Of a stretch of 34,149 bases of DNA, positions 6,885-29,862 are shown one piece after another. Numbering within the stretch: the stretch's first letter is position 1; each line of letters starts with the position of its first letter. The notes under the pieces are model-generated. The model made no database searches, was not told the origin of the DNA, and saw only the letters and a program-made list of their open reading frames with translations. This DNA is from Prevotella sp. (GTDB lineage Bacteria; Bacteroidota; Bacteroidia; Bacteroidales; Bacteroidaceae): assembly GCA_017474485.1 (NCBI GenBank), contig JAFVHO010000117.1, positions 1 to 34,149 on the forward strand. The letters are read 5' to 3'. Made by a program: the position numbers and the translations under genes.

Positions 6885-8204
6885 TTACAGGAACGGCTGT
6901 AACAGGTGGGCAAACCACCCACGGAACTTCTGCCATCCTGTACGGAATTCATCCCATGTTTCATCTGTTAGCTGGAACGACTGTTGCTTGTCGCGCCAGA
7001 ACATATTGTCGAGTTCCTGCGTCGTGTTCTTGTCAACAATGACCGCATTCTCCTCAAAATCACACTTCAGACTGCGTGCATCGAGATTGGTACTGCCTAC
7101 GGTGCAGTAGCGCCCATCAACCATCATGATTTTCGAATGGTGGAAACCTGGCTTGTAGAGCCAGACAATGACACCACGTTTCTGTAGTTTGCGAGCCTGA
7201 TAGAGTGCACAGTCAGGTGTCAGGGGAATGTCGCTTTTTGATGACAGCATGATCTCTACTTTAACACCACGACGAATGGCCCGTGTCAGCGCGCGTGTCA
7301 CAGTCGGAATGAGCGTGAAGTAGGGGTTGATGATATGAATGGAATCCTGCGCCTGATTGATGGCGTTGATATAGAAAGTGCGCATAATTTTGGGCGTGAT
7401 GCCAGGTTCGCGATTAATGATGCCCACCATCTTACGTCCTTTGGTGGCAGTAGTGTCTGGCTTCAGGTCGGAAAATTTGGTGAGCGTGCCACCACGGAAG
7501 TATTTGGCACCGCTGACCTGTTGTTTGGTGGCGCGATTCCAGATACGGAGGAAGATGCTCTGCAGGTCGTTGACAGCATCGCCCTCGATGCGGCAATGCA
7601 TATCGCGCCATTCGCCTACCTGTTCCGTACCTTTTATATAATAGTCGGCTACATTCATACCGCCCGTATAAGCTATACGTCCATCAATGACTACAATCTT
7701 TCGGTGGTCACGTCCATAGATGTGATTGACCCAGGGAAATCGGATAGGGGAGTACTCTACAATCTCAATGCCCTCCTCGCGTAGAGGCTTTAGGTGATAT
7801 TTCTTCAGAGGCTGGTTGTTGGAGTCGTTGCCAAAGCCATCGAACATCGCACGTACTTCAACGCCCTCTCTGCTTTTCGCCTTCAGCAGTTCGAACAAAA
7901 GCATGGCAATGGAGTCATTACGGAAGTTGAAGTACTCCAGATGGATGCTGCTCTTGGCCTGACGGATGGCCTGAAACATATCATCGAATTTCTGCTGACC
8001 CGACAGCAACAGCGTCACACTATTGTCGTGTGAGAAACGGATGTTGCTTTCGCGTAATGTCTGAACTATCAGCGAGTCGCTCGTCTGCGCTTTTGCGCAA
8101 TTAGAAATTAGTAATGAGTAATGAGTAATTATGATTACAATTAATAAACGAAAGCCAATATTATGTAAACCCCAATGGCATATTCTGCCTACACAACAAA
8201 TCAT
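6885..8204 (-). CDS. Phospholipase D / cardiolipin synthase-like protein, 439 aa
   Basis: Two complete HKD motifs are present: H167-x-K169-x4-D174 (HRKIVVID) and H356-x-K358-x4-D363 (HSKIMMVD), each followed by the usual Gly/Ser and Asn (GGMN, GSTN). This is the hallmark of the PLD superfamily and the layout fits bacterial cardiolipin synthases, which transfer phosphatidyl groups. Unlike typical synthases there are not two N-terminal membrane helices, but one hydrophobic stretch (residues ~18-34) ending in CAKAQ, so it may be exported or anchored once. The start codon and signal are encoded inside repeat DNA (8099-8236), so the true start is uncertain. It lies 37 bases downstream of the HTCS-type regulator and may be co-transcribed. 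Confidence 0.85.
   Translation of the reverse strand: MICCVGRICHWGLHNIGFRLLIVIIITHYSLLISNCAKAQTSDSLIVQTLRESNIRFSHDNSVTLLLSGQQKFDDMFQAIRQAKSSIHLEYFNFRNDSIAMLLFELLKAKSREGVEVRAMFDGFGNDSNNQPLKKYHLKPLREEGIEIVEYSPIRFPWVNHIYGRDHRKIVVIDGRIAYTGGMNVADYYIKGTEQVGEWRDMHCRIEGDAVNDLQSIFLRIWNRATKQQVSGAKYFRGGTLTKFSDLKPDTTATKGRKMVGIINREPGITPKIMRTFYINAINQAQDSIHIINPYFTLIPTVTRALTRAIRRGVKVEIMLSSKSDIPLTPDCALYQARKLQKRGVIVWLYKPGFHHSKIMMVDGRYCTVGSTNLDARSLKCDFEENAVIVDKNTTQELDNMFWRDKQQSFQLTDETWDEFRTGWQKFRGWFAHLLQPFL
8099..8137 (+). repeat. Heptad repeat element copy B, inside the phospholipase-D-like gene
   Basis: Four units (AATTAGA, AATTAGT, AATGAGT, AATGAGT) plus AATTATGATTA. Read on the minus strand this DNA encodes the residues THYSLLISN of the signal peptide. 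It forms an inverted pair with copy C: 34 of 38 bases match, with 62 bp between. Confidence 0.9.
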
Positions 8205-8236
8205 AATTACTAATTCCTAATTACTAATTCCTAATT
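8199..8236 (-). repeat. Heptad repeat element copy C, inverted, upstream of the phospholipase-D-like gene
   Basis: On the minus strand: AATTAGG, AATTAGT, AATTAGG, AATTAGT, then AATTATGATT. The ATG inside the anchor is the predicted start codon of the phospholipase-D-like gene (8202-8204). Confidence 0.9.
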
Positions 8237-8241
8237 TAAAG

Positions 8242-11200
8242 TTATTTTTTATTCTTCAAGCGATACTCCAATGGAGTCATGCCGAACTTCTCCTTAAAGA
8301 TGTTGACAAAGTTCTCTGCTGTCTTGAAACCGACATTGAGAGCTAGCTCACTCATGTTAACATTCGTGCTGACAAGTAGTGTGCAGGCATGCTTCAGACG
8401 GATATCGCGAACCACCTCAGCAGGTGTCTTTGTGGTGATGGAACGTATCTTGTGGAAGAAAGGTACACGACCCATACCCATGGCGGTGGCCATCTCTTCA
8501 AGGCTGATTTGTCCGCGGCTCATGTTCTGCAGTACAAACTGCTCTACATTGCGCATCAGTTGCTGATCCATTGATTCGCTCATGGAGTAGTCGCCAATGG
8601 TGTTATCGCCATAATATTTCTCGTGCATCCAAGCACCCTGGTTCTGGGCGGCAGGTGCATTCTCGATAGGCTGCTGCTCAGTCGTGTCTTGCTGCTCTCC
8701 ATCGCCAGCCTCGGTCTGAGCCTGAGCTTTCAGTTCGTCCAGGTCTTCATAAACCATTGTGGCAGTAGTCATACTGGCGTTACGGCTTTCAATCATACGT
8801 GTCTCACTACCCTCGATGACATCCTGATTCATCTCGATAGGTCCGAGACCCATCAGTTTATTGAAACGCATGACAGCCTCCTGAACATTGAACGGCTTAG
8901 CTAGATAGTCGTCGGCAGCCAGCGTGATATTCTTGTCAATCATATCTTGTTGTGTCAGCACACTATCAGTCATCAGCACGAACTTGGTCTTGCCACGTCG
9001 GTTGTCCATCTTGAACTGCGTGCAGAGTTCGCTACCCGTCATTGGTTTCATATCCTGCTTACAGATGACGAGGTCGGCATTCAGCGTCTCGATATCGGGC
9101 AGGGCTTCCTTGATGGTTTCGTAGGTGTGGAAGTTGTAGACATCGCGCAAGTGGGCATTCATAAAGTTCAGGAACTCACGGTTGTCGTCAATCAGTACGA
9201 CGGCAAACTTCTTAGCCTGCGAGTCAACCCTTATAGGCTTAGCGTCAATGGCCAACTCGCTGCTGACATCGTAGGCCAATGCCACCTGACCCTTGTCGTT
9301 CAGTTCCAAACGGTCTTTAGCTGAAGAGGTAGCCTTCTTTTCAGGATTCTCCAATGTCGATTGCATCTCAGAGATGCGTGTTATGACCTGCAACAGTTGG
9401 AAGTGCAGCGAGTTCAGCTGTTCGCGTCCCTCCAGCGTTTGTTCTCTTTCAGCCATACTGCCGATGATGGTTGTCATACGGGCCATTGGCTGGCGCAGTT
9501 CGTCGCTGGCCAGTTTGATTTCCTCGCGCTGGCGTTTTAACTCGTCAATGACAGCACGTTTGCTCATCCAGATATGTTTCACCTTGCCAATACCATAGCG
9601 CCAGATGATGAGGGCAATGATAGCAATGATGACGTAGAGTGTGAGCATCCACCACGACAGCCACCAAGGGCGGTCGATGGTAATGTCAAGCTTGCGTTCT
9701 TGGTTGCTGACGGCACCATCGGCGCTGACGGCCTTGACGTGCAGGGTATAGTCGCCGCTACCTAAATTCTGGAACTTTACACCATGCAGCATGGCGTCGC
9801 CATTACGCCAGTCGTTGTCACGACCTTCCATCCAGTACATAAACTGCAAGCGCTCGCCCTTGTTATAGTTACCGGCAGCAAACTTGATGGTGAAGGTGTT
9901 CTGACTATTTGCCAGTTCAATCTTGCTACTCTCGTTGAGTGCCGAGGTCAGGATGACGCGATCATCGTAGGCATGTCCCGTCAGGATTTCTTCCTCGCCA
10001 ATAAACAATTGGGTCAGCATGACACGGGGCAGGGTCTCCTGATCGTCCTTGGCTGCTTCGCGAACCCAGTTGATACCGTAAAGTCCACCGAAGATGACTT
10101 TACCTTCGTCGCTGGTCGACAGGATGGCACCCATATTGAACTCGTTGCTCTGCAGACCGTCGTTGATGCTGTAGTTGTAGAGTCCGAAGGCGAAGGTGCC
10201 GTCCTCGTGGTTACGCTGAACCACAATACGACTGATACCATTGCTGGTGGTCACCCAGATGCTTCCGCTCTTGTCCTCGGCTATACCACAGATGGAGTTG
10301 TTGCAGAGTCCGTCGTTTTCCGTGACATAGTAGAGCTCGTCAGATTCTGGGTTCAGTACGTTGATGCCCTCGCGCGTACCTATCCATATTAAGCCTCGCG
10401 AGTCTTCGTGTACCTGTGTGATGTAGTTGTTGGTAAACGAGTGCAGATTAGTGGTATTACCCGTCATCACCGTCTTCTCGCGCGTAGAGAGATTCAGAAT
10501 CACCATACCCTCAGCCGTACCTATCAACAGCTTATTGTCAGTACCGTAATAGAGCGAGGTGATGTTATTCGTGTTCAGCATGCCATTTTCACGTGTATAG
10601 CTGCTGAAGGTGTTCATCTTCGGGCTGTATACCTGCAAGCCGCCGTTGGTAGCAATCCATAGGTTGCCGGTCTTATCGGCACAAAGGGCGTTGATGTGAT
10701 CGTCAATCAACGTCTTCATACTATCGCGAGCTGCCGAATAGAAGGATGTGACACCGTCCTTGATACGTGTCAGGCCGTTCTGCTTGGAACCTACCCACAG
10801 ACTACCGTCCGAGGTGGTCGCCATGCAGGTTACCTTACGGCTGGCCAACTGTCCCTCGTAGTTGATGATACCCCTGTCGCTTGTACCGTACCATAGCTTG
10901 CCCGTCGCGTCTTCCGCAATGGCGGTAATGTCGCCAATCATATCGGCATCGAACTTATAGATGTTCACGCCATAGTAGGCTACACCTGATTTCTCGGTTC
11001 CTACCCATAGCAGGTCGGTATCGTCCACGTACAGGCTCTGTACGCCTATCACCTCTTGGATGATGCTTTGCTGGTCGTTGAAACTTCGGGGTGCCACGTA
11101 TTCTACCTCATGCGTGTTGACATTCATGCGCAACAGGCCTGTTCGGTCGGTACCAATCCAAATGTTGCCACTGCGGTCGCCAGCCATACCGTTGACCGAA

Positions 11201-12009
11201 TGGTCCACGCTGATACCCGTCAGTCCCAGCTGATTGCCCATGTTGGTGTCCCACTGGTTGGTGTTCTTGTTATACATCATCAGCGTGCCTTGACCGTAGA
11301 GCCAGATATTGTCCATCTGGTCGGCAAAGACACGCAGCGACTTACTGCGTCGCAAACCATTCTCGGCAACGTAATCGGTTTGCCATACGGTATGTTGCTG
11401 ATGCATGATGTCGCAGCATACCAGTCGTCCGTCTTCATACACCAGGAGTGCACCGTCGCGACACTCGCCGATAGAAACGATGTTTCCCTGCGGAATACCT
11501 ACGGCATCATTGGTATAGCCAAACTCATAGTTGGTTTGTTGCTGCTGGTTATAAGCCACCACACCCTTGTTGGGTATCGAGGCCCAGAAGTTCTTATGGC
11601 GGTCTACATAAACCACGTTGGGCTGTCCCTCTATACCCATGCGGGTATATACTTGCTTCATGTCGCGCTCAAAGTTCTCCGTCTGTGGGTGGTAGACACA
11701 AAAACCTGCCGAAGTTTCAATCCACAACGTACCTTCCAGCGTTTCCTGTATACTGATGATGTAGCTGTCGGGCAGCGACGAACCGTCCTGAGAATTACAT
11801 TGGAAGTTACGGAACGTATAGCCGTCGTAGCGGTACAGACCTGCTGTGGTGCCAAACCATAGGTAGCCACGCGAGTCTTTCATCACGCAGTTCACCTGAC
11901 TACTGGTCAGACCGTCGCGCGCATCCAATGTCTTAAACAGATATACGCCGGCAACAGCCAACGGTATTGCCAGCATTAAGAGTATCAATATTTTTTTTAT
12001 TCTATTCAT
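8242..12009 (-). CDS. HTCS-type membrane regulator with degenerate kinase and receiver, AraC-type HTH
   Basis: This 1255-residue protein has the layout of hybrid two-component sensors of Bacteroidetes: signal anchor (1-25), about 14 Reg_prop blades in the periplasm (to ~690), a Y_Y_Y domain (~700-780), one membrane helix (~785-806), a HisKA-like helix pair (~810-885), a receiver-like domain (~930-1050), a Gln/Glu/Thr-rich linker, and an intact AraC-family HTH (~1150-1255). The phosphorelay looks dead. The HisKA motif reads SDELRQPM, with Asp836 where the His should be. No HATPase domain lies between it and the receiver. The receiver acceptor Asp is Lys984 (LVICKQDMKPM), although Asp986 is two residues away. 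ATG at 12009 is preferred to an in-frame GTG at 12027. No promoter was seen, so it may be transcribed with kdsA-kdsD. Targets unknown. Confidence 0.9.
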   Translation of the reverse strand: MNRIKKILILLMLAIPLAVAGVYLFKTLDARDGLTSSQVNCVMKDSRGYLWFGTTAGLYRYDGYTFRNFQCNSQDGSSLPDSYIISIQETLEGTLWIETSAGFCVYHPQTENFERDMKQVYTRMGIEGQPNVVYVDRHKNFWASIPNKGVVAYNQQQQTNYEFGYTNDAVGIPQGNIVSIGECRDGALLVYEDGRLVCCDIMHQQHTVWQTDYVAENGLRRSKSLRVFADQMDNIWLYGQGTLMMYNKNTNQWDTNMGNQLGLTGISVDHSVNGMAGDRSGNIWIGTDRTGLLRMNVNTHEVEYVAPRSFNDQQSIIQEVIGVQSLYVDDTDLLWVGTEKSGVAYYGVNIYKFDADMIGDITAIAEDATGKLWYGTSDRGIINYEGQLASRKVTCMATTSDGSLWVGSKQNGLTRIKDGVTSFYSAARDSMKTLIDDHINALCADKTGNLWIATNGGLQVYSPKMNTFSSYTRENGMLNTNNITSLYYGTDNKLLIGTAEGMVILNLSTREKTVMTGNTTNLHSFTNNYITQVHEDSRGLIWIGTREGINVLNPESDELYYVTENDGLCNNSICGIAEDKSGSIWVTTSNGISRIVVQRNHEDGTFAFGLYNYSINDGLQSNEFNMGAILSTSDEGKVIFGGLYGINWVREAAKDDQETLPRVMLTQLFIGEEEILTGHAYDDRVILTSALNESSKIELANSQNTFTIKFAAGNYNKGERLQFMYWMEGRDNDWRNGDAMLHGVKFQNLGSGDYTLHVKAVSADGAVSNQERKLDITIDRPWWLSWWMLTLYVIIAIIALIIWRYGIGKVKHIWMSKRAVIDELKRQREEIKLASDELRQPMARMTTIIGSMAEREQTLEGREQLNSLHFQLLQVITRISEMQSTLENPEKKATSSAKDRLELNDKGQVALAYDVSSELAIDAKPIRVDSQAKKFAVVLIDDNREFLNFMNAHLRDVYNFHTYETIKEALPDIETLNADLVICKQDMKPMTGSELCTQFKMDNRRGKTKFVLMTDSVLTQQDMIDKNITLAADDYLAKPFNVQEAVMRFNKLMGLGPIEMNQDVIEGSETRMIESRNASMTTATMVYEDLDELKAQAQTEAGDGEQQDTTEQQPIENAPAAQNQGAWMHEKYYGDNTIGDYSMSESMDQQLMRNVEQFVLQNMSRGQISLEEMATAMGMGRVPFFHKIRSITTKTPAEVVRDIRLKHACTLLVSTNVNMSELALNVGFKTAENFVNIFKEKFGMTPLEYRLKNKK

Positions 12010-12034
12010 ATATATATTATTCTTCACTCTTCAC

Positions 12035-12073
12035 TAATCATAATTGTCAATTCTCAATTGTCAATTGTCAATT
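12035..12073 (-). repeat. Heptad repeat element copy D between kdsD and the HTCS-type regulator
   Basis: On the minus strand, units AATTGAC, AATTGAC, AATTGAG, AATTGAC, then the anchor AATTATGATTA. The heptad sequence differs from copies A-C but the number of units and the anchor are the same. It ends 1 bp short of the kdsD stop codon. Confidence 0.9.
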
Positions 12074-12074
12074 C

Positions 12075-13052
12075 TTACAGTACGCACGCATAGCGGTCGA
12101 CGATTCCCAATAAATGGTTTTCGCTGTCCACTACCAGCACATTGTGGATTTTATATTTATTCATCAATTTCTGCACATGGGCAATTTTGGTATCGGGGCT
12201 TACCGTCTTCGGTGTGCGTGTCATGATGTCGCTTACCGTGCGGTCAAAGAACTCTGCATTCCACTTTTCCATAGCCCGTCGGATGTCACCATCGGTAATC
12301 ATACCCTCCACGTGGTACTTTTCACTGTTCGCTTTCAAATCTTCGCTTCTCACCGCTACACCAAGTCCCAACTTGCCTTTGCTGACGTGGATAATGGCCT
12401 CACCCAAGTGCATGTCGGCTGTCAGCATGGGCAGATGCTCGGTTATCATCACGTCCTGAGCTGTGGTCAACAGACGCTTGCCTAATTCGCCGCCCGGATG
12501 GAACTGTGCAAAGTCCTGTGGTTTGAAATGACGGCGCTCCATCAGTGCCACAGCCAACGCGTCGCCCATCACAAGTGTTGCCGTTGTCGAACTGGTTGGT
12601 GCCAGATTCAGCGGACAAGCCTCTTTCTCCACACTTACGTTCAGGTGGCAGGTAGAGTATTTGGCCAACAGCGACTGCGGATTGCCACTCATGGCTATGA
12701 TGGGTATGCCGAAGTGTAGTACCATCGGGATGAACCGCAGCAGTTCGTCGGTCTGCCCCGAGTTTGAGATAGCCACCACAACATCGCCCTGTGCCATCAC
12801 GCCTAAGTCGCCGTGATACACGTCCAGCGGATTGACAAAGAATGATGGCGTGCCAGTCGATGCCAGTGTTGCGGCTATCTTGGCACCAATGTGGCCACTC
12901 TTGCCCACACCCGTCACAATGACCTTGCCCTTGCATTGCAAAATCAGCTCCACGGCACGGTCAAAGTCCTCGTCCATCTTCGGTATCAGGTCCAGCACAG
13001 CCTGTGCCTCGTCCCTGATACATTGTATCGCGTAGTCTCTACTCTTCACCAC
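12075..13052 (-). CDS. kdsD: Arabinose-5-phosphate isomerase (KpsF/GutQ family)
   Basis: The enzyme interconverts D-ribulose 5-phosphate and D-arabinose 5-phosphate, the first step towards Kdo of lipopolysaccharide. An N-terminal SIS domain (about 35-170) shows TGVGKSGHIGAKIA and SNSGQTDE; two CBS domains follow (about 205-325), seen in DVMI... and DIMTRTPKTV... . Length 325 is normal. The start is a GTG at 13052 lying at the end of a heptad repeat. It is 13 bp downstream of kdsA, which uses its product, so the two form an operon. The sugar is D-arabinose phosphate, so proximity to the arabinan locus is not evidence of a metabolic link. Confidence 0.93.
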   Translation of the reverse strand: MVKSRDYAIQCIRDEAQAVLDLIPKMDEDFDRAVELILQCKGKVIVTGVGKSGHIGAKIAATLASTGTPSFFVNPLDVYHGDLGVMAQGDVVVAISNSGQTDELLRFIPMVLHFGIPIIAMSGNPQSLLAKYSTCHLNVSVEKEACPLNLAPTSSTTATLVMGDALAVALMERRHFKPQDFAQFHPGGELGKRLLTTAQDVMITEHLPMLTADMHLGEAIIHVSKGKLGLGVAVRSEDLKANSEKYHVEGMITDGDIRRAMEKWNAEFFDRTVSDIMTRTPKTVSPDTKIAHVQKLMNKYKIHNVLVVDSENHLLGIVDRYACVL

Positions 13053-13077
13053 TTTTCACTTTTCACTATTCACTTTT
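13050..13077 (-). repeat. Four-heptad repeat spanning the kdsA stop and the kdsD start
   Basis: Minus-strand units AAAAGTG, AATAGTG, AAAAGTG, AAAAGTG, in a row. The kdsA C-terminal residues VKSE and its TAG stop are read from this repeat, and the kdsD start codon GTG is its last three bases. Confidence 0.85.
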
Positions 13078-13827
13078 CACTAGCTTTACGATTAAATCGT
13101 AAAGCTTATCCAGCTCCAGCATGTTGGCAGCGTCGCTCAGACCTTGGTCAGGGGTGGGGTGTACCTCAAAGAACCAGCCAGTGGCACCAAAAGCTTTGGC
13201 TGCCATTGCCATCTGGGGCACGAACCGTCTGTCGCCGCCCGTCTTTCCGTCAGCACCGCCAGGACGTTGCACGCTATGTGTGCAGTCCATAATTACCGTT
13301 GGACACAATTCCAGCATATCAGGGATGTTGCGGAAGTCCACCACCAGATTGTTATACCCCATCATGTTCCCGCGCTCTGTCAGCCAGACGTCCTTAGCTC
13401 CAGCCTCGCGGGCCTTCTCCAACGGATAGCGCATGTCGTGACCCGTCAGGAACTGCGCTTTCTTGATATTCACCACACGTCCAGTCCGTCCGGCAGCTAC
13501 CAGCAGATCAGTCTGACGACACAAAAAGGCTGGTATTTGTAATACGTCGCACACCTGACCAGCGGGAACTGCCTGCCAGGCTTCGTGGATGTCCGTCAGT
13601 ACGCGTAGCCCGTATTTTGACTTGACGTCGCTTAACATCAGCAGCCCATGGTCAATGCCAGGACCGCGAAACGAGCTAATAGACGTACGATTGGCCTTGT
13701 CAAACGAGGCCTTAAATATGATATCAGTGCCCAGTCTATTGTTGATATCCACCAACTTAGCTGCCACTGTATCAAGCAATTCAGCCGACTCTATCACGCA
13801 CGGACCAGCTATAAATGTTGCCTTCAT
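13066..13827 (-). CDS. kdsA: 3-deoxy-8-phosphooctulonate (Kdo-8-P) synthase
   Basis: KdsA condenses phosphoenolpyruvate with D-arabinose 5-phosphate to Kdo 8-phosphate in the cytoplasm. Recognisable motifs are GPCVIES (8-14), FKASFDKANRTS (about 38-49), and DCTHSVQRPGG near residue 181. Cys10 in place of the Asn found in E. coli KdsA marks the metal-dependent class. At 253 residues it is slightly shorter than the E. coli enzyme, which is usual for this phylum. It is first in a kdsA-kdsD unit, with a promoter 25 bases upstream of the ATG. Confidence 0.96.
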   Translation of the reverse strand: MKATFIAGPCVIESAELLDTVAAKLVDINNRLGTDIIFKASFDKANRTSISSFRGPGIDHGLLMLSDVKSKYGLRVLTDIHEAWQAVPAGQVCDVLQIPAFLCRQTDLLVAAGRTGRVVNIKKAQFLTGHDMRYPLEKAREAGAKDVWLTERGNMMGYNNLVVDFRNIPDMLELCPTVIMDCTHSVQRPGGADGKTGGDRRFVPQMAMAAKAFGATGWFFEVHPTPDQGLSDAANMLELDKLYDLIVKLVKSE

Positions 13828-14745: not shown

Positions 14746-14774
14746 GAAATTGCATTAGAAATCTTTAATACTAG

Positions 14775-14813
14775 TCCGCTCGATTCCGCAAGGTATCGGG
14801 CGGATTCTTTTTG
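14775..14813 (+). terminator. Intrinsic terminator after the beta-barrel gene
   Basis: Stem TCCGCTCGAT (14775-14784) with ATCGGGCGGA (14795-14804), one G-T pair, 10-base loop, then TTCTTTTTG. Confidence 0.85.
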
Positions 14814-14857
14814 CACATGTTTTAATTGTGTATCAAAACAAAGTTTTCGATTTTTCC

Positions 14858-14890
14858 TTTGGCGTTTCGCTCTTTTTGCACTATCTTTGC
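14858..14890 (+). promoter_or_regulatory. Promoter of the arabinan-locus regulator
   Basis: TTTG at 14858-14861, 20 bp spacer, TATCTTTGC at 14882-14890: a full match to the Bacteroidetes consensus. The box ends 8 bases before the ATG at 14899. Confidence 0.8.
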
Positions 14891-14898
14891 CGATGTTT

Positions 14899-17892
14899 AT
14901 GCGAGTAGTCCTTATTATATTAGTCATGCAGCTGCTGTTAATGCCAGTGCGTTCGCAGAATGTGTCGTTGCAATCAGACATGCTGGTTGAACGCTATAAT
15001 ATGGCGTGTCTCGACTTGAGGGTTGGGTTGCCTCATGACCATGTAAACGATATTTTCGTGGACAGTAAGGGTTTTGTCTGGGTGTCGAGTTTTGGTGGTG
15101 GCGTCGTTCGTTACGACGGCTATGCCTTTACAGCACCATTTCAGGGCGACAGTCGGTCGTGTTTGGGCTTTGCCGAGGATCGTTGCCAGCGACTTTGGAT
15201 AGCGTATGCCGAGGGGACGGTGGTTGTTGACCTGAAGAAGATGTGCCGTGTGGTGCCGACGATGAACGGTCACGACATTGGACAACGCCTGCAGCGCCCT
15301 ACGGTGAAGGTGCATTGCGACTCGAAGGGAGCCATGTGGCAGGTGGCACGCGACAGCATCTATCGCTATGAGTTCGATGAGTCGGGCTGTGTGGCCAGTA
15401 TCAGCTGCTGCCCCTATCAAGGTAATACGCCTGACATTGCCATCAGTGACATCGAACATAACGGCAATGTATGGGTATCGACCGCACTTGGACTGCAACG
15501 ACTTCACGTGCATGGCAATAGCCTTCAGTTCAGTCCGATACACACGACGCTGCAATCCCTCAACGGTTATTTTATCACTGATTTGCTTCGGCAGGGCAAT
15601 CGCGTGTGGATAGCTACCAACGAGGGACTCCATGCATACGACCTGTATAATAACACGTTGCAGACCTTCCGCCATAGTGCTGACCAACGGTCGTTGCCAC
15701 ACAACCACGCTACATCGCTGGCACTGACAGATGACGGGCAATTGCTGGTGGGAACGCTGCGAGACATTTGCCTGTTCGACGCCCCACGTTCTGGTTTCGT
15801 ATGCTGGAACACCACAACTGCAGATTGTCCGCTGCCCAGCGATTTCATCCGCTGCCTGCTGAACTACGACGGACAATTGTGGATAGGCACTGAGACGGCA
15901 GGCATCGTGCGGCTGATGCCCAAACCCCTGAGGCTGCAGAACTACGTCCACCAAGCAGACAATGTCCTGTCGCTGCCGTCAACACCCGTGAATGCAATGT
16001 ATGCCAGTGCTGATGGAACCATTTGGGTGGGGAATGTCGAAGGCGGACTAAGCAGGCTGCCAGCACGCGGACAACACTCGACAGGTCACGGTATGGTGCG
16101 CTGGACCACTGCCAACTCTGCATTGTCGCATAACTCCGTATCGGTGTTGCAGCCCGACGCTCATGGGCGGCTGTGGATTGGCACATGGGGTGGGGGTGTC
16201 AACATGATTGCGCTGGAGGGAAATGCACAACCCCAGCGGCTGGTGCTGCCAGCCGACATACAGCGTCAAACCGAGTATGTCGGAGCCTTAGCGTACGACA
16301 AGTATAACGATGCCCTGTGGATAGGTGCGAACGAAGGCATCTTCCTCTACGACCTGAAGACTGGTCGTATTGAGGACCCTTTCCCCAACAACCGCAACAT
16401 CAGAGGCTGTATCGGAGCCTGTATAGACCGTAATGGTCACCTGTGGATGGGCTGTCTAATGGGCGTCTGTGACATTGACTTGAAGGCTGGTCGTGCCGAT
16501 AAGGGTAAGTTCCGCTATCGTCACCTGATTCATAAGCTGGATAAGCCGCAGTCGCCGGTAATCGACAAGATAACCTGCATCTATGAGGCCAAGGACGGCA
16601 CATTGTGGCTGGGCAGCGACGGCTATGGGCTGTACCGCCGGCTGACTGAGAAAGGGGGACAGGAGCGTTTTGAGGTGATGACTACCGATGACGGACTTTC
16701 CAACAACGCCGTGAAGGGTATTGTCGACGACGCCAACGGGCGACTGTGGATTACCACCAATAACGGTCTGTCAGTGTACGACCCCCATCACCACACCTTT
16801 GTGAATTATGGCGAGCGCGATGGTCTGCTGTGCCAGCGATTCTATTGGAATTCGGCCATCAAGGATGCTGACGGTGTCATCTATTTAGGCAGTATAAAAG
16901 GATTGACAGCCATACGTGGCGAGAATACGGACATTACAAGCCCAGTGCATCTCTCATTCACCCATCTGGTGGTCGATAATCAGGAGATAACCGCAGCCAA
17001 TAGTTCCATCATCGATTCCGACATCTCGCTGGCTGAGAAGATACGGTTGCACGAGTCTAATAAGTCGTTCTCGCTCAGTTTCTCTGCACTTAGCAGTGCT
17101 GGTCAGCCACAACAATTTGTGTGTCGCCTGAAAGGTTTCGAGGACGATTGGACCGTGCTGAAGCCAGGCGAGCATACAGTGCGATATACTAGTCTGAAGC
17201 CTGGAACCTACCTCTTTGAAGTGAAAAATGCGACGGAGACTGGTCTGGACGGAAATACCATCAGTATTAAGGTGGAAGTGGTCCCGTATTTCTGGAAGAG
17301 TTGGTGGTTTATATTGTTGTGCCTTATGGTGCTCTCTGGCATCTTTGTCTGGCTCTACCGTCTTCGCTTGGCGTCCCTTCGTCGTCAGGAAGCTGAAAAA
17401 CTGATGCAGCCTGTCCGTAAGGCTTTGGAAGAAAGTGATGATCCTGTCCAGTTACAATCGCGCATACAGAATATTCTGGATACTCATGAGTATTTGATGC
17501 AAAGTTTTCATCGTACTGTTGAGGCAGATAAGCAGCAAACAGTAAAAAGCAAGGGCTTCATGGAACGTGCTACGGAAATTATGGAGCAGAATTATGGTAA
17601 CAGCGAGTTTGGCATTGATGAGTTTGCAGAAGCTTTGGGCATGAGTAGAAGTTTGGTGTCGAAGCGACTGAATCATGAAGCCGGTCAAAGCACCAGCCAG
17701 TTTATCCGTAACTACAGGTTGAGTGTTGCCAAGCGTTTATTGCTTGACAATTGGGCTAACAGGAATATCACAGAAATAGCCTATAAGGTGGGGTTCAACG
17801 ACCCCAAGTATTTTACGCGTTGTTTTACCCGCCAGTATGGCTGTAGTCCCAGCGCATTTGTAGGGGAGGATGAAGAGGTGGATGAAAAGTAG
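14899..17892 (+). CDS. Kinase-less membrane regulator: Reg_prop sensor, Y_Y_Y, TM helix, AraC-type HTH
   Basis: Of 997 residues, the first ~20 are a signal peptide or anchor; about 14 Reg_prop blades follow (phrases such as GQLWIGTETAG and GRLWIGTWGGG), then a Y_Y_Y domain (~725-795), one membrane helix (~799-822), a short charged helical linker, and an AraC-family HTH (~892-990, ITEIAYKVGFNDPKYF intact). There is no HisKA, HATPase or receiver domain, so the signal must pass straight through the membrane to the DNA-binding end. Position just before susC indicates it is the activator of the arabinan locus, sensing arabino-oligosaccharides in the periplasm (inference). The frame is open to a TTG at 14887, but that lies inside the promoter box; ATG 14899 or 14893 is better. 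Confidence 0.9.
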   Translation: MRVVLIILVMQLLLMPVRSQNVSLQSDMLVERYNMACLDLRVGLPHDHVNDIFVDSKGFVWVSSFGGGVVRYDGYAFTAPFQGDSRSCLGFAEDRCQRLWIAYAEGTVVVDLKKMCRVVPTMNGHDIGQRLQRPTVKVHCDSKGAMWQVARDSIYRYEFDESGCVASISCCPYQGNTPDIAISDIEHNGNVWVSTALGLQRLHVHGNSLQFSPIHTTLQSLNGYFITDLLRQGNRVWIATNEGLHAYDLYNNTLQTFRHSADQRSLPHNHATSLALTDDGQLLVGTLRDICLFDAPRSGFVCWNTTTADCPLPSDFIRCLLNYDGQLWIGTETAGIVRLMPKPLRLQNYVHQADNVLSLPSTPVNAMYASADGTIWVGNVEGGLSRLPARGQHSTGHGMVRWTTANSALSHNSVSVLQPDAHGRLWIGTWGGGVNMIALEGNAQPQRLVLPADIQRQTEYVGALAYDKYNDALWIGANEGIFLYDLKTGRIEDPFPNNRNIRGCIGACIDRNGHLWMGCLMGVCDIDLKAGRADKGKFRYRHLIHKLDKPQSPVIDKITCIYEAKDGTLWLGSDGYGLYRRLTEKGGQERFEVMTTDDGLSNNAVKGIVDDANGRLWITTNNGLSVYDPHHHTFVNYGERDGLLCQRFYWNSAIKDADGVIYLGSIKGLTAIRGENTDITSPVHLSFTHLVVDNQEITAANSSIIDSDISLAEKIRLHESNKSFSLSFSALSSAGQPQQFVCRLKGFEDDWTVLKPGEHTVRYTSLKPGTYLFEVKNATETGLDGNTISIKVEVVPYFWKSWWFILLCLMVLSGIFVWLYRLRLASLRRQEAEKLMQPVRKALEESDDPVQLQSRIQNILDTHEYLMQSFHRTVEADKQQTVKSKGFMERATEIMEQNYGNSEFGIDEFAEALGMSRSLVSKRLNHEAGQSTSQFIRNYRLSVAKRLLLDNWANRNITEIAYKVGFNDPKYFTRCFTRQYGCSPSAFVGEDEEVDEK

Positions 17893-18057: not shown

Positions 18058-21000
18058 ATGAGAAAACAAGTCTTATTCTCTACGATGCTAATGTTGGGAA
18101 TGACGGGAGGATTAACTCTCACGTCAGTTCCTGCAATGGCGTCTGTGACCCAGCAGACTATCAAGGTCAAGGGTCAGGTTGTAGACCAAGACGGAGAACC
18201 ACTTATTGGTGCAACCGTCAAGGTGAAGGGTAGTCAGACTGGTGCAGTGACCGATTTCGACGGTAACTTCACAATTGATGCTGCTTCAAACGCAACACTT
18301 GTCATCAGCTATGTGGGCTTCAAGGATCGGGAGATTGCCGTCCGTGGGCGAGCTGTCATTGACAAGATTCAAATGGAGTCCGACTCCCAGGTGCTCGATC
18401 AGTTGGTTGTAGTTGGTTACGGTACACAGAAGAAGGCCGACCTGACCGGTTCTGTCAGTATCGTGAATGCTGAAGAACTGAAGCGTGTGTCTAACTCCAA
18501 CATTTCCACCATGCTGGAAGGTAAGGTAGCCGGTGTGCAGATTACTTCTGACGGTCAGCCGGGTGCTGATCCTTCAGTACGTATTCGTGGTATCGGCTCA
18601 TTTGGTAGCACAGCTCCTCTGTATGTTGTCGATGGTGTACCTATGGGCACCACTATCCGCGACTTCTCGCCTAACGACATTGAGACCATTCAAGTACTGA
18701 AGGACGCTTCCGCTGGTGCTATCTACGGTTCGCGTGCTGCTAATGGTGTGGTTATCATCACTACTAAGAGCGGTAAGAAGGACCAGCCATTGAAGGTTGA
18801 CTATAAAGGATATTTCGGTATTGACAAGATTTCCAGTAGCGTCTATGACGTCATGGACGCCTCGCAGTACAGTCAATATTTAGGTATGGCTTGCGCCAAC
18901 AGCAACACGCCGTTAGCTGGCGGCTATAGTCTTGGAACTGACGGTAAGTACCATTTCCAGGACGGTACAAACACCGACTGGTTCAACGAAGTTTTCAAGA
19001 CAGGTACCCGCCAGAACCACAATATCAATCTGAGCGGTGGTAGTGCCACCAGCACTTATAACGTCGGTCTCGACTACTTCCAGCAGAAAGGTACGTTGGA
19101 GGGGGCAGGTCCTAACTACGAGCGTTTCACTGCTCGCGTTAATAACACGATGGAGACCAAGTTCATCAACTTCCGTACCTCGTTGGTTTATTCGCACAGC
19201 AATCAGGACGGTATGGGTCTTTCGAACGCCTCTGAGTATGTTCAGGGTTTGTATGGTGACGTCACCAACGTGTTGCGTGGAACACTGCTGATGCAACCTA
19301 CCATTAAGGCTTACGATCCCACCACTTGGGTGCTTGACGACAAGGTAGGCTCTGCCAGCAGCTATAACTACGATGCTTACGGCTATGGCGTTTACTATGA
19401 TACCGTTCATGGTGATATCTCGGCCTCCAACCCACTGCTGGTCAACAATCTGCTGACTCGCAATACGATTGTTGACCGTGTAGTAGGTACTGGCTCTGCT
19501 GACGTCAACCTGCTGAAGATGATTGGCATTGAGTCAAAGAACCATAAGCTGACCTACAAGCTTAATCTTTCATACAGCAAGACCTATGCAACCGACAAGA
19601 CTTGGGTATCAGCATGGATTCAGTCGAACCGTGTCTATCTGGACAAGTCGAACGAGCGCCTGACCAAGGGCACTCGTCAGTATAGCGACTTCTTGGCTGA
19701 AAATACGCTGACCTATGACGGCACCATTGGTAAGCATCACATTAACCTCTTGGGCGGTATGACCTATCAGGAGGACAATACCAACGAGATTACCGGTTGG
19801 GCAGTCAACTTCTCGGAACCTTATTTCCTGCAGTTGCAGAATGGTGGCGACACCTATTCAAGCTCTTATGAGGCTAAGCACTCGATGGCTTCGTTCATCG
19901 GTCGTTTGAACTACGACTACGATGGCAAGTACCTGCTGTCGGTTGTCATTCGTCGTGATGGCAGCTCTCGTCTGACAAAGTCCATCCGTTGGGAGACCTT
20001 CCCCTCTGTATCTGTCGGTTGGCGTTTCGATAAGGAAAGCTTCTTCCCCATCAACCGCGACATCGTTAATATGTTTAAGGTACGCGCGAGCTATGGTGAG
20101 TTAGGTAACGAGGCTGCTGTCGGCAACTATGCTAACTTGGCTACCCTGGCCCGTAATAACATGACCTATTCTTTTGGTAACGTGCCCATTACTGGTTCTG
20201 CTATTTCTAATTTCGTCAATGCCGACATTGCATGGGAGAAGAAGAAGACCACCAATATCGGTATCGACCTGGCTATGTTCAACAACCGCTTGGAGTTCAC
20301 AGCTGAGTGGTACAAGAACAAGTCTGAGGATCTGCACTACAATGTGCCCGTACCTGCAAATGCTGGTGTGGCTAACACGGCTGTAACGATGAATGCTGCC
20401 TCTATGGAGAACAGCGGTTTCGAGTTCTCTGCAACATACCGTAATAACGACCACCCACTGAAGTGGCAGGTAAGTGGTAACCTGAGCACCCTGAAGAACA
20501 AGGTTACGTCGCTTGGTTTCGGTACGGAAAGCTACGTCACTGGTGCCTATATAACAAAGGTAGGCGAGGAAGTCGGTCAGTTCTACGGCTGGCAATATGG
20601 TGGCATCATCCGTTCACAGGAACAGCTGAACCAGCTGAACGAGATGGGACGCGTGACTCACAACAACAGCGAGTTAGCTAAGCAAAAGGCTAATCCCTCG
20701 TACGTGCCTGACCTCGTGGCTGAGGGTGGCTGGACCTACCAGGGCGGTGCCAACGTCGGTGACTGCTGGTATTATGACAGCAACAACGACGGTAAGGTGG
20801 ATGCCAATGATCAGGTGGTGCTGGAAAGTGGCCTGCCCAAGGTTAGTTTCGGTATCAGCGCCCGTTTTGAGTATAAGAACTTCGACTTGGCCATCTCGAC
20901 CTTTGGTGCTTTGAACTATCACGTGACTGATGACATCTATAACAGTCTGAACTCATGCTACGGTCCTGGCAATAAGGACGTAGATGTTGCTGGTGCTAAC

Positions 21001-21345
21001 CGTTGGTCGGCTGACGGCAATACCTATATCTCAGACGTCCCACGTACCTATTATTCTAATAGCGCCACATTGCCTTGGAACGACTTGTTCAGTGAGCGCA
21101 AGATTCAGAATGCTGCTTATTGGAAGATTGCTAACATCGAGATTGGCTACAACTTCCCCGACAAGTGGTTCAAGGGCGTGGTCAGCGGTGTACGTGCATA
21201 CGTGTCGGCTCAGAACCTATATACCTTTACCAAGTATCATGGTTACAATGTTGACTATGCCGGCGGTACTTTCACCCCAGGTTACAACTTCTGTTCGTAC
21301 CCGACTCCTCGCAGTTTCATGGGAGGTATCCTCTTGTCGTTCTAA
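18058..21345 (+). CDS. SusC/RagA-type TonB-dependent outer-membrane transporter of the arabinan locus
   Basis: A signal peptide (about 1-28) precedes a carboxypeptidase-regulatory-like domain (KVKGQVVDQDGEPLIGATVKVKG, about 36-110). The plug starts near LDQLVVVGYGTQKKADLTGSVS and contains the typical RIRGIGSFGSTAPLYVVDGVP. The rest, to residue 1095, forms the 22-stranded barrel ending in GGILLSF. No STN domain is present. With SusD it forms the gated pore that takes oligosaccharides into the periplasm using TonB energy. Specificity for arabino-oligosaccharides is inferred from the downstream enzymes. It is the first gene of the operon; susD follows after 36 bp. Confidence 0.97.
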   Translation: MRKQVLFSTMLMLGMTGGLTLTSVPAMASVTQQTIKVKGQVVDQDGEPLIGATVKVKGSQTGAVTDFDGNFTIDAASNATLVISYVGFKDREIAVRGRAVIDKIQMESDSQVLDQLVVVGYGTQKKADLTGSVSIVNAEELKRVSNSNISTMLEGKVAGVQITSDGQPGADPSVRIRGIGSFGSTAPLYVVDGVPMGTTIRDFSPNDIETIQVLKDASAGAIYGSRAANGVVIITTKSGKKDQPLKVDYKGYFGIDKISSSVYDVMDASQYSQYLGMACANSNTPLAGGYSLGTDGKYHFQDGTNTDWFNEVFKTGTRQNHNINLSGGSATSTYNVGLDYFQQKGTLEGAGPNYERFTARVNNTMETKFINFRTSLVYSHSNQDGMGLSNASEYVQGLYGDVTNVLRGTLLMQPTIKAYDPTTWVLDDKVGSASSYNYDAYGYGVYYDTVHGDISASNPLLVNNLLTRNTIVDRVVGTGSADVNLLKMIGIESKNHKLTYKLNLSYSKTYATDKTWVSAWIQSNRVYLDKSNERLTKGTRQYSDFLAENTLTYDGTIGKHHINLLGGMTYQEDNTNEITGWAVNFSEPYFLQLQNGGDTYSSSYEAKHSMASFIGRLNYDYDGKYLLSVVIRRDGSSRLTKSIRWETFPSVSVGWRFDKESFFPINRDIVNMFKVRASYGELGNEAAVGNYANLATLARNNMTYSFGNVPITGSAISNFVNADIAWEKKKTTNIGIDLAMFNNRLEFTAEWYKNKSEDLHYNVPVPANAGVANTAVTMNAASMENSGFEFSATYRNNDHPLKWQVSGNLSTLKNKVTSLGFGTESYVTGAYITKVGEEVGQFYGWQYGGIIRSQEQLNQLNEMGRVTHNNSELAKQKANPSYVPDLVAEGGWTYQGGANVGDCWYYDSNNDGKVDANDQVVLESGLPKVSFGISARFEYKNFDLAISTFGALNYHVTDDIYNSLNSCYGPGNKDVDVAGANRWSADGNTYISDVPRTYYSNSATLPWNDLFSERKIQNAAYWKIANIEIGYNFPDKWFKGVVSGVRAYVSAQNLYTFTKYHGYNVDYAGGTFTPGYNFCSYPTPRSFMGGILLSF

Positions 21346-21363
21346 TTCATCATTCATCATTCT
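21346..21363. repeat. Short heptad repeat between susC and susD
   Basis: TTCATCA occurs twice in a row right after the susC stop codon, followed by TTCT. Confidence 0.6.
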
Positions 21364-21381
21364 TAATAGAATATATATCAT

Positions 21382-23190
21382 ATGAAACTATATAAATTAT
21401 CATTTGCCCTGCTGCTCGGCATAGGTGCGATGACCTCATGTAGCGACAAATTGGATGTCAGCGACCCTAACCGCCAGACATCTGAGACCTTCGGTAATTC
21501 AGCCGATGATCTGGAAGAATGTGTCATTGCTTGCTACAACCACATCCGTATGGAGGGCACATACGCCCGCGTGGGTTATAATCTTGATGTCACCCGTGGT
21601 GACGAAGTATGGAACTCTTCTCAGGTTTGGTATATGCCATTCGACGATTTGAATGACCCTATCACTGACGAAATCAACCAGTGGTCGTGGCGTGACTGGT
21701 ACTACACCATCAACGTCTGCAATTTCATCTTGTCGCGCGTTACCGATGACAACAGTACGTTGAGTGACCGCTATAAGCGCATCAAGGGACAGGCCCTGTT
21801 CATTCGTGGTCTGGCTTACTATAATCTGGCTGGATACTATCAGAATCCTGCTCTGATTACCGATTATAACGATTATAAGACTTTGGACGGTCTGTATGCT
21901 TCCAACTATCAGGAAGGCGATGCCGATGGCAATGCTCAGTATGATCGCGTGCTCGATCATGTTGAAAAGGACTTGGCTGAAGCTATGACGCTGCTGCCTG
22001 CCAAGACTGTTGGCGGCGAGTGGGCAAAAGGTCGCGCCACCAGTGGTGCCGCTGCCGGCTACTATGCTCGTACGCTGATGATGCGCCACAAGTATAGCGA
22101 GGCTCTGGCCGTTCTCAAGGATATCATGAGTACTGCCGATGGTGGTAACCAGTTGTATGGCGAGTACAAACTGATGGCAGAATTCGGCGACAACTTCCGT
22201 GAAGGTCCTGAATACGAGAACAACGACGAGAGCATCTTTGAGGTGCAGTTCCTTGACCTGGAGTCTCAGGGTACCGATGATGAGTGGACACCTGTCAACA
22301 CCAGTGCCAATGCTACGCAGGGACATGCTATTGAGAGCAACTATGGTCCTGGCGACTTCGGCGGATGGGCCGACCTCTCTGTATCCCCATGGCTTTACAA
22401 CCTGTTCCTGAGTGAAAAAACTACAAATGGCTCTCTTGATCCACGTCTCTATTGGACTGTCGGAACTTATGAGCCTGCCTGGGATGGCTATGCCAATGGC
22501 AATGTCTGCTATACTGCACCTATGACAGCTGGTAACTATGTTGTCACGAATAACGGTTATGGCGGTCTGCCTATTGCCAAGAACACCAATTTCCGTACCA
22601 ACCTTTACGATAAGATAGTTGTTGGTCTGCATTGTGGTATTAACCTGCGCCTGATGCGTTACTCTGACGTACTGCTGCGTGCTGCTGAGTGTGAGAATGA
22701 GGTGAACAATGGGCCGACAGCCAATGCCTACAAGTGGATAAATGCTGTACGTAACCGTGCCGGACTGGCTGATATAGATCAGAGCAAATACAATACAGCC
22801 GACAAACTGTTTGAATATATAGCAAATGTGGAGCGTCCAAGAGAGTTTGGTTGTGAGTTCGGACGTGGCTTTGACCTCATTCGCTGGGGATTCTTCTATA
22901 GTGCCGACCGCCTGCAGCAGTTGAAGGAGCATGCAGCTGTCAATTTCTGGACAAAGGCTAACTTTGACAAGGGTATCTATACCTACACCCCGAAAGATGC
23001 CGTTAACTATAATGGCTGCAGCAAGAGCTCGTTCGATACCTTCAAGCCTGGTCATGAATTCCTGCCTATTTTCCAAAATACATTGACCCAGAACACTCAT
23101 TTGGTAGGTAACTCGGCCAATAAGGACAGCAACAATGCCTCTTACTTCTCTGGAAAAGGTTGGACGGTGCATCCTGTGGTGAACCTTTAA
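21382..23190 (+). CDS. SusD/RagB-type surface glycan-binding lipoprotein
   Basis: SusD proteins cap the SusC pore on the outside of the cell and hold the glycan. Lipoprotein signal with Cys20 (GAMTSC) followed by SDKLDVSDPN. Helical segments of SusD type are visible (ALFIRGLAYYNLAGYYQNP, VLDHVEKDLAEAMTLLP), as is the family's conserved C-terminal region (LRLMRYSDVLLRAAECENEV, VRNRAG, ERPREFGCEFGRGFDLIRW). Length (602) is within the usual range. Many Trp and Tyr residues are available to stack on sugars. Ligand inferred as arabinan from context. Confidence 0.96.
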   Translation: MKLYKLSFALLLGIGAMTSCSDKLDVSDPNRQTSETFGNSADDLEECVIACYNHIRMEGTYARVGYNLDVTRGDEVWNSSQVWYMPFDDLNDPITDEINQWSWRDWYYTINVCNFILSRVTDDNSTLSDRYKRIKGQALFIRGLAYYNLAGYYQNPALITDYNDYKTLDGLYASNYQEGDADGNAQYDRVLDHVEKDLAEAMTLLPAKTVGGEWAKGRATSGAAAGYYARTLMMRHKYSEALAVLKDIMSTADGGNQLYGEYKLMAEFGDNFREGPEYENNDESIFEVQFLDLESQGTDDEWTPVNTSANATQGHAIESNYGPGDFGGWADLSVSPWLYNLFLSEKTTNGSLDPRLYWTVGTYEPAWDGYANGNVCYTAPMTAGNYVVTNNGYGGLPIAKNTNFRTNLYDKIVVGLHCGINLRLMRYSDVLLRAAECENEVNNGPTANAYKWINAVRNRAGLADIDQSKYNTADKLFEYIANVERPREFGCEFGRGFDLIRWGFFYSADRLQQLKEHAAVNFWTKANFDKGIYTYTPKDAVNYNGCSKSSFDTFKPGHEFLPIFQNTLTQNTHLVGNSANKDSNNASYFSGKGWTVHPVVNL

Positions 23191-23232
23191 GAGAAAGGTT
23201 AAAAAGTAAAAAGGTAAAAAAGTAAAAAGATA
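23191..23232. repeat. Junction repeat with 8-bp period between susD and the next gene
   Basis: AGTAAAAA/GGTAAAAA-type units follow one another and fill most of the 47-bp gap. Confidence 0.6.
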
Positions 23233-23237
23233 CAACT

Positions 23238-25178: not shown

Positions 25179-25239
25179 TCCTCTCTCATTTGTGAACAAC
25201 AAAATCAAAGAAAACATTCTTTTTAAAAGTAAGATAATT

Positions 25240-26982: not shown

Positions 26983-27008
26983 GTGATAATTTAAATATAA
27001 TGATCATC

Positions 27009-27039
27009 TGTGGTGCTCTTCGTGAGCACCACACTTTTT
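27009..27039 (+). terminator. Strong hairpin inside the arabinan operon, between the two GH43 paralogues
   Basis: Perfect 10-bp stem TGTGGTGCTC (27009-27018) with GAGCACCACA (27024-27033), loop TTCGT, then C and five T. It looks like an intrinsic terminator, but no promoter is visible before the next gene, so it may be an attenuator or an mRNA-stability element. Confidence 0.7.
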
Positions 27040-27052
27040 AAAAAAGACCAGA

Positions 27053-28819: not shown

Positions 28820-28824
28820 GAAAT

Positions 28825-29844: not shown

Positions 29845-29862
29845 CAATTGAAATTAATCATT

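Follow-up and report, generated by a model that had tools for sequence, protein, structure and literature searches.

A Prevotella HTCS-derived regulator without phosphotransfer parts as a probable transmembrane one-component transcription regulator

How can a regulator built like an HTCS pass on a signal when the parts that handle phosphate are missing? The question is raised by a gene on the minus strand at 8242..12009 of the window, the whole 34,149-nucleotide stretch of Prevotella sp. DNA analysed here; all features given below lie on this strand. The reading frame runs uninterrupted from the ATG at 12009 to 8242 and encodes 1255 aa, and residues are counted from this ATG; an alternative in-frame start, a GTG at 12027, gives 1261 aa with the same end. 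Relatives were found in 80 loci. Pfam matches were obtained to Reg_prop, Y_Y_Y, Response_reg (46 bits) and HTH_18, with no match to HisKA or HATPase_c at E ≤ 1. The chain begins with a periplasmic sensor of Reg_prop propellers and Y_Y_Y (residues 22–785, 9655..11946; Pfam, PDB matches), whose model (pLDDT 84.9, pTM 0.73) resembles the BT4663 HTCS sensor in fold as it does in sequence, with 4a2m and 4a2l as the best PDB matches. A membrane helix read from the sequence (residues about 784–806, 9592..9660) lies within a long helix of the model and is followed by a pseudo-DHp helix pair (residues 817–890, 9340..9561; model), in which 29 of 74 columns are invariant in 81 proteins, and by a short linker (residues 891–935, 9205..9339; Pfam, model) that takes the place of HATPase_c in an HTCS. 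A pseudo-receiver (residues 936–1055, 8845..9204) and a C-terminal AraC-type HTH (residues 1143–1254, 8248..8583) are each seen by Pfam, the model and PDB matches, and between them the alignment reveals a conserved motif, IEGxETRxxExxxxSMTTAT (residues 1065–1084, 8758..8817), in a low-confidence stretch of the model that is probably disordered. The Bacteroides HTCSs BT4663, BT4124 and BT3049 have the same domain order, from sensor and Y_Y_Y through membrane helix and DHp-like helices to receiver and AraC HTH, but here the phospho-accepting His, HATPase_c, a receiver with phospho-Asp and S/CHIP are all lacking, and the gene is located in a kdsA/kdsD/cardiolipin-synthase cluster and not in a PUL. 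What is left is a sensor, a membrane helix and a DNA-binding domain on a single chain, as in transmembrane one-component regulators, with a receiver fold that has no phospho-Asp, as in aspartate-less receivers.

An earlier note had described the phosphorelay as dead at three points, and this was borne out when the window protein was aligned with the best 80 of 194 relatives found. Asp836, in SDELRQPM (codon 9504–9502), stands where an HTCS has its phospho-His, and Lys984, in LVICKQDMKPM (codon 9060–9058), replaces the phospho-Asp of the receiver. Among the 81 aligned proteins position 836 is D in 65 and E in 16, with nine D/E exchanges on the tree and no other residue, and position 984 is K in 80 and R in one, with a single change. 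Within the 81, Lys984 and an acid at 836 are thus conserved, but in a further divergent member, G217, position 836 is Gly although Lys984 is still present. In the predicted structure of residues 780–1255, a membrane/signalling helix (782–855), a second helix (859–887) and a third (889–904) lead through a low-confidence stretch (904–927) into the receiver, and no ATPase fold is found. The best 50 of 383 PDB matches (E ≤ 0.001) are receivers or AraC-type domains by title, with the exception of one flagellar C-ring chain whose title is uninformative. A hidden ATPase between helix pair and receiver, absent as the note had it, is therefore rejected by Pfam, model and PDB matches alike. The model also confirms the placement of Lys984, which is the final residue of receiver strand β3, the acceptor position.

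Other routes for phosphate fared no better. Asp986, which had been put forward as a substitute acceptor, is rejected since it is not conserved (D 50, N 13, E 9 and others among the 81, with 23 changes on the tree). His869 is present in 81/81, but is unlikely to be a new phospho-site because an aligned intact relative has His there as well and the regulator has no ATPase. Phosphotransfer from another kinase is rejected because the usual acceptor place is empty. The pseudo-receiver itself is well kept, with Asp941, Thr1014 and Lys1038 in 81/81, Tyr1035 in 77/81 and a variable position 942, and this residue set fits the aspartate-less-receiver pattern set out in PMC4395418, where RitR, FrzS, ChxR and HP1043 likewise keep the first acidic residue, Thr, Tyr and pocket Lys.

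The open frame had earlier been taken as a sign that this is not decay, and we agree. The long frame is kept in all 80 relatives (L081 is cut by a contig end), and some of the loci are from isolates by title, e.g. L053, L061, L101 and L114, with the same frame and replacements. Whole-gene dN/dS is 0.036–0.094 in four pairs (0.04–0.09 rounded), with 0.00–0.05 for the pseudo-DHp and 0.03–0.085 for the sensor in the same number of pairs; judged by these ratios, purifying selection is acting on the gene. The bin also contains a further near-copy (contig C54) that is split between two frames; this would suit a decayed gene or an assembly artefact, but the replacements are conserved in 81 proteins and dN/dS is far below 1, so the regulator is not decaying. 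We regard decay or misassembly as refuted for the family and its probability here as negligible. A paralogue on another contig, C159, considered as a conceivable source of ATPase activity in trans, has a LacI regulator on one side and a GH31 gene on the other.

Since the regulator is tightly conserved though the phosphate parts are absent, the signal most likely passes directly through the protein. With a probability of roughly 0.7, we consider it to be an HTCS turned phosphate-independent transmembrane one-component transcription regulator; phosphate-free signalling, as the earlier note proposed, is the likeliest reading of a sequence without the catalytic parts. The sensor, helix pair, receiver fold and HTH, all conserved, support it. 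The propeller/Y_Y_Y sensors would form a dimer as in HTCSs, and a ligand, perhaps an envelope or cell-wall glycan, would alter this dimer. The membrane helix would carry the movement to the conserved pseudo-DHp pair, which would act as a dimerising signal helix, and the pseudo-receiver may be a platform for positioning or releasing the AraC domain.

Most HTCSs have S/CHIP-DK as an inhibitory interface between REC and DBD (PMC11253607). The S/CHIP part of it is gone from the regulator: the Pro column is Lys in 80 and Arg in one, and the His is left in 2/81, while the DK partners are kept (Asp1148 80/81, Lys/Arg1187 81/81). This counts for phosphate-independent signalling, but it also raises the question whether the sensor still controls the DNA-binding domain. 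The HTH could be constitutive, e.g. a repressor, with a sensor that has no control over it, and PMC11253607 reports that motif changes in BT4124 led to phosphorylation-independent DNA binding. However, the sensor is under the strong selection noted above and 162 of its 751 columns are invariant in the 81 proteins; selection on a sensor without a signal is hard to explain, making this alternative improbable.

Direct signalling has its own counterpoint in that the pseudo-DHp and pseudo-receiver are conserved beyond the apparent need of passive coupling, an excess that could reflect a partner protein. One form of this would be a pseudokinase that heterodimerises with, or allosterically assists, an intact HTCS or kinase, like DivL with CckA. 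The highly conserved pseudo-DHp agrees with such a role, as does an intact HTCS gene about 2.4 kb from the regulator in G394, a genome of sister genus g10, and PMC12189002 offers a precedent, a pseudohistidine kinase whose target is a kinase. Against this, the regulator has an HTH of its own and the usual receiver phosphate site is absent in 81/81, and we think a pseudokinase role quite improbable, slightly more so than a constitutive HTH.

The replacements themselves suggest another possibility. In complexes of histidine kinases and response regulators, positions 836 and 984 face each other when the receiver docks on the DHp, and it is possible that an acid-base contact now exists where His and Asp once met. 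Such a salt bridge could be a latch, permanent or made and broken by the sensor. An acid at 836 and a base at 984 occur together in 81/81, the exchanges at 836 are between D and E only, and among the relatives viewed no other genus has a base at 984. However, G217 lacks the acid and keeps the Lys, sister genus g10 has E/E and Q/E at the two positions, no strong covarying partner for 836 was found among positions 800–1255 (best score 0.15), the monomer model (pTM 0.38) does not define relative domain placement, and Lys984 could pair equally with Asp941 inside the receiver. We therefore treat the latch as doubtful, though the least so of the alternatives weighed here.

Phosphate-independent signalling also draws on relatives of the same sensor lineage, which variously keep the full phosphorelay or lack the REC, the kinase or both. 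No orthologue with normal His and Asp, a finding the note had seen as contrary to its proposal, occurs among the 81 in the genus, but distant relatives of this lineage have both. Some others have neither kinase nor receiver while their HTH is intact, so phosphotransfer is dispensable for the sensor and the HTH. HATPase presence requires four changes on a quick tree, three of them forced by well-supported branches; the lineage trees have SH-aLRT support only and long branches, and the relation of groups g16, g10+g1 and g11+g21 is not settled in either of two trees, g16 being one group in one (support 95) and not recovered as one in the other. In the searches at family and order level, which used the full-length profile, only two candidates per genome were scored, and the profile itself includes the g10 and g16 proteins as three of its rows. 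A bolder scenario has one HTCS sensor lineage converted several times to direct signalling, the Prevotella branch using the D/E836–K/R984 contact as a phosphate-free pseudo-DHp/pseudo-receiver switch over genes for outer-membrane (Kdo) and cardiolipin synthesis; we consider it unlikely, somewhat more so than the latch by itself.

The genes of that cluster share the regulator's strand. A KpsF/GutQ-family sugar-phosphate isomerase (12075..13052; TIGR00393, 314 bits against a cut-off of 203.7) lies 65 nt upstream and is the next gene upstream in 77/80 loci; its score falls below the cut-off of the KdsD equivalog model (305 vs 505), and the name kdsD used here is suggested by subfamily and context. 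KdsA, 3-deoxy-8-phosphooctulonate synthase (13066..13827; TIGR01362, 340 vs 314), is found in 75/80 loci, and a cardiolipin synthase-like PLD protein (6885..8204; TIGR04265, 291 bits against 290) is encoded 37 nt downstream of the regulator and found in 80/80. The full order kdsA-kdsD-regulator-cardiolipin synthase is kept in 75/80 loci and is presumably an operon. In 7/7 genomes of the genus viewed that have no regulator, kdsD directly precedes the cardiolipin synthase gene, so the cluster can do without the regulator, which is present in only 120/299 genomes of the genus sample (many of them incomplete); this too is a counterpoint to direct signalling. No shared operator upstream of kdsA was found by k-mer count (k 8–10, 77 upstream stretches), and the commonest k-mers resemble words of TAnnTTTG promoters. 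We put the odds that the regulator's targets include its own cluster at about even.

Single parts of this arrangement have precedents. The HTCS BT4236 carries Gln in place of the phospho-His and has a changed interface motif, CSIP-EK, and PMC11253607 suggests that it works without phosphorylation; only the His change is reported there, whereas the regulator also lacks the ATPase and the receiver Asp, a condition conserved in many species of one genus. It is argued in the same paper that a dimeric HTCS kinase already holds two DNA-binding domains together, and how a membrane sensor drives DNA binding without phosphate is thus a live question for HTCSs. Arg, Lys and His together make up 4% of phospho-Asp replacements in the aspartate-less-receiver survey, and the receivers described in PMC4395418 are stand-alone or carry a C-terminal DNA-binding domain, unlike the present one, which forms part of a membrane-sensor protein. 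Transmembrane transcription regulators and SusR-like regulators (PMC10269533, PMC3878776) also combine a membrane sensor with a DNA-binding domain on one polypeptide, but the regulator retains a conserved dead DHp and dead receiver in between, and its DNA-binding domain is of a different type from that of SusR. Similar architectures may stand in the tables of PMC10269533, since that paper counts hybrids containing at least one two-component core domain. Among the titles and abstract openings of matches listed from the open-licence literature, no description of this regulator or of an HATPase-less HTCS was found.

This family amounts to a natural knockout of phosphotransfer that leaves the sensor, helices, receiver fold and HTH in place, and other stages are seen in relatives that lack REC, kinase or both; phosphate-free switching thereby becomes a testable question, in which the sites preserved by selection can reveal what the DHp and receiver do apart from chemistry. 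Genes of envelope synthesis, as distinct from polysaccharide utilisation, come into view as possible targets of an HTCS descendant. The regulator occurs in many Prevotella-type bacteria and offers a natural test of switches that work without phosphate.

The open reading frame that the earlier note placed at 8242–12009 was confirmed on the minus strand, where it encodes 1255 amino acids and has an in-frame GTG at 12027. Pfam matched Reg_prop (seven stretches), Y_Y_Y, HTH_18 and, at residues 937–1045, Response_reg (46 bits), and gave no match to HisKA or HATPase_c at E ≤ 1, in agreement with the claim that the HATPase domain is missing. The sensor was modelled at pLDDT 84.9 and pTM 0.73, and its nearest structure was the sensor of the hybrid two-component system (HTCS) BT4663 (E 5e-46), which the sequence also matched (4a2l). 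The model of residues 780–1255 (60-sequence alignment, pLDDT 74.5, pTM 0.38) predicted helices at 782–855, 859–887 and 889–904, a low-confidence stretch before the receiver (904–927), a receiver fold (block pLDDT 76–96), a second low-confidence stretch (1062–1141, pLDDT mostly below 50) and the HTH. The 50 Foldseek matches listed for this model had titles naming receivers or AraC-type domains, with the exception of one C-ring chain whose title was uninformative. The regulator is a descendant of HTCSs, and since three defining HTCS features fail we do not class it as a functional one.

One scan of genome contigs found 194 stretches encoding a relative, and the best 80, from Prevotella, Xylanibacter and uncultured relatives (62–95% identity), were kept and aligned with the regulator. 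A long open frame was found in 80/80, one (L081) being cut by a contig end. The changes at the former phospho-His (Asp836) and phospho-Asp (Lys984) hold across these 81 rows, with Asp in 65 and Glu in 16 at 836 and Lys in 80 and Arg in one at 984, leaving an acid in place of the phospho-His and a base in place of the phospho-Asp in 81/81. Position 986 varies (Asp 50, Asn 13, Glu 9 and others), as does 942 (Asp 43, Ser 19, Asn 14, Thr 5), and 941 is Asp in all 81, 1014 Thr in 81, 1035 Tyr in 77 and Met in four, and 1038 Lys in 81. On a FastTree tree built without column 836, the fewest changes needed were nine at 836, all between Asp and Glu, one at 984, 23 at 986, 18 at 942 and none at 941. 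This receiver pattern matches that of the aspartate-less receivers described in PMC4395418, where 4% of the replacements are Arg, Lys or His.

According to Gao et al. (PMC11253607), most HTCSs carry an S/CHIP motif in the alpha3-beta4 loop of the receiver, which together with D and K of the DNA-binding domain keeps that domain inactive, and the Gln at the His site of BT4236 is taken there to suggest a phosphorylation-independent mechanism. In an alignment with L238, an intact relative whose own motif is SGIP, the regulator reads GKTK at this site; across the 81 rows His occurs in two at the His column, Ile in 22 at the Ile column, and the Pro column is Lys in 80 and Arg in one. Asp1148 is kept in 80/81 and Lys/Arg1187 in all (57 + 24). 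Between receiver and HTH, within the low-confidence stretch, the motif IEGxETR...SMTTAT (8758–8817, minus strand, residues 1065–1084) is strongly conserved, with 11 of the 23 columns of 1064–1086 invariant, and is perhaps a binding element.

Selection was measured as dN/dS (NG86) between the regulator and four relatives, L082, L039, L040 and L041, giving in that order 0.036, 0.037, 0.094 and 0.082 for the whole gene, 0.00, 0.04, 0.04 and 0.05 for the pseudo-DHp and 0.02, 0.05, 0.10 and 0.07 for the pseudo-receiver; dS was 0.64, 1.39, 1.56 and 1.94, so the last three comparisons are near saturation.

The kdsA, kdsD, regulator and cardiolipin synthase genes share a strand and are separated by 13, 65 and 37 nt. 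The products of the three neighbours scored above the cut-offs of the KdsA, KpsF/GutQ subfamily and cardiolipin synthase models, the last by one bit only, and the name kdsD is based on the subfamily assignment and the gene context, because the KdsD equivalog model was not reached. Both gaps flanking the regulator (8205–8241 and 12028–12074) contain short A+T-rich tandem repeats (AATTGACAATTGA-like and AATTAGGAATTAG-like). The cardiolipin synthase gene is directly downstream in 80/80 loci, kdsD directly upstream in 77/80, and all four genes are in order at 75/80; three of the five incomplete loci end at a contig edge (L081, L094, L118), and the other two (L075, L085) lack the upstream kdsA/kdsD pair within the 6 kb examined. 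We also viewed 29 cardiolipin synthase loci of other genomes. Ten were from the same genus, three with the regulator and seven without, and in 7/7 of the latter kdsD directly precedes the cardiolipin synthase gene, as it does in L196, whose genome is labelled as a different genus, and in 10 of the remaining 18 as judged by the longest upstream frame. Since the two genes adjoin in genomes without the regulator, it was either inserted between kdsD and the cardiolipin synthase gene or lost from there.

Within the genus, 145 of the 299 sampled genomes passed E 1e-20; by our count 120 of these carry a member (289–447 bits), and in the other 25 the only hits are ordinary receivers of no more than 99 bits. 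Full-length members in the family sample of 301 scored 1274–2239 bits, against 883 for the next protein; the scores of groups g10 and g16 are raised by construction, as their members sat in the search profile. Relatives of the same sensor lineage form a graded series of dismantling. Intact HTCSs are found in g11, f78 and f3, and the two g11 loci viewed with wider flanks lie beside GH43, GH31 and GH2 genes (L257) or GH97 and esterase genes (L258). In g21, the kinase survives without a receiver in G592 and G548, and neither remains in G384 and G366, which occupy the chromosomal site of G592 (four neighbours 81–92% identical). L255:5251–9219 and L256:4869–8147 represent one locus in two congeneric species, one keeping the kinase without a receiver and the other having neither, a picture suggestive of loss in steps. 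Kinase and receiver are also both absent in f24 (two genomes, read by eye). In g16, G413 lacks the helix pair, keeps the receiver Asp and has a cardiolipin synthase gene (49%) directly downstream; seven other proteins lack the kinase and have degenerate receivers, one aligned (L236, Ser for Asp) and the others read by eye, and one of them (L254) lies beside UxuA and rhamnosidase genes. In the two g10 genomes the helix pair is present with Glu or Gln in place of His, HATPase is absent and the receiver Asp is replaced by Glu; a cardiolipin synthase gene (45% identical) lies two genes downstream in G377, and none was found within the 15 kb examined in G394. In a quick tree built from 46 sensor rows (26 without HATPase, 20 with), HATPase presence needs four changes, three forced by well-supported branches; L190 and the window protein at 14746–17889, which had very long branches in another tree, were left out.

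The propeller and AraC-HTH proteins found in the window's own genome fall into three groups, with counts that are lower bounds because the genome is 73% complete. Three have the full phosphorelay (L184, L189, L190), two lack HATPase and His and keep the receiver (the regulator and L186), and four match neither kinase nor receiver (window 14887–17892, L187, L188, L192). L186 (262–3375 of contig C177, minus strand) has Arg for His by eye, a HisKA match just under the cut-off and the receiver Asp. The protein at 14887–17892 (plus strand; Y_Y_Y below the cut-off) is the fully reduced architecture within the same window, and it adjoins a SusC/SusD/GH43 locus (18058–31986). Outside this tally are L185 and L193 (propeller, no HTH match) and a propeller/Y_Y_Y paralogue on contig C159 (L182:4571–7732) that matches HATPase_c and not HisKA, receiver or HTH, flanked by a LacI-type regulator and a GH31 gene. 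A near-copy of the regulator on contig C54 (L183), 88–96% identical by stretch and split across two overlapping frames, is followed by a cardiolipin synthase gene (96% identical) and probably reflects either misassembly or a sister strain within the bin.

An acid-base latch between 836 and 984 would be an attractive and testable extra. It is not general, as shown by g10 and by G217, a divergent member outside the 81 (289 bits) with Gly at 836 and Lys984 kept. The missing parts and the strong selection point to a phosphate-free mechanism, and the regulator most likely works like a one-component transmembrane regulator.
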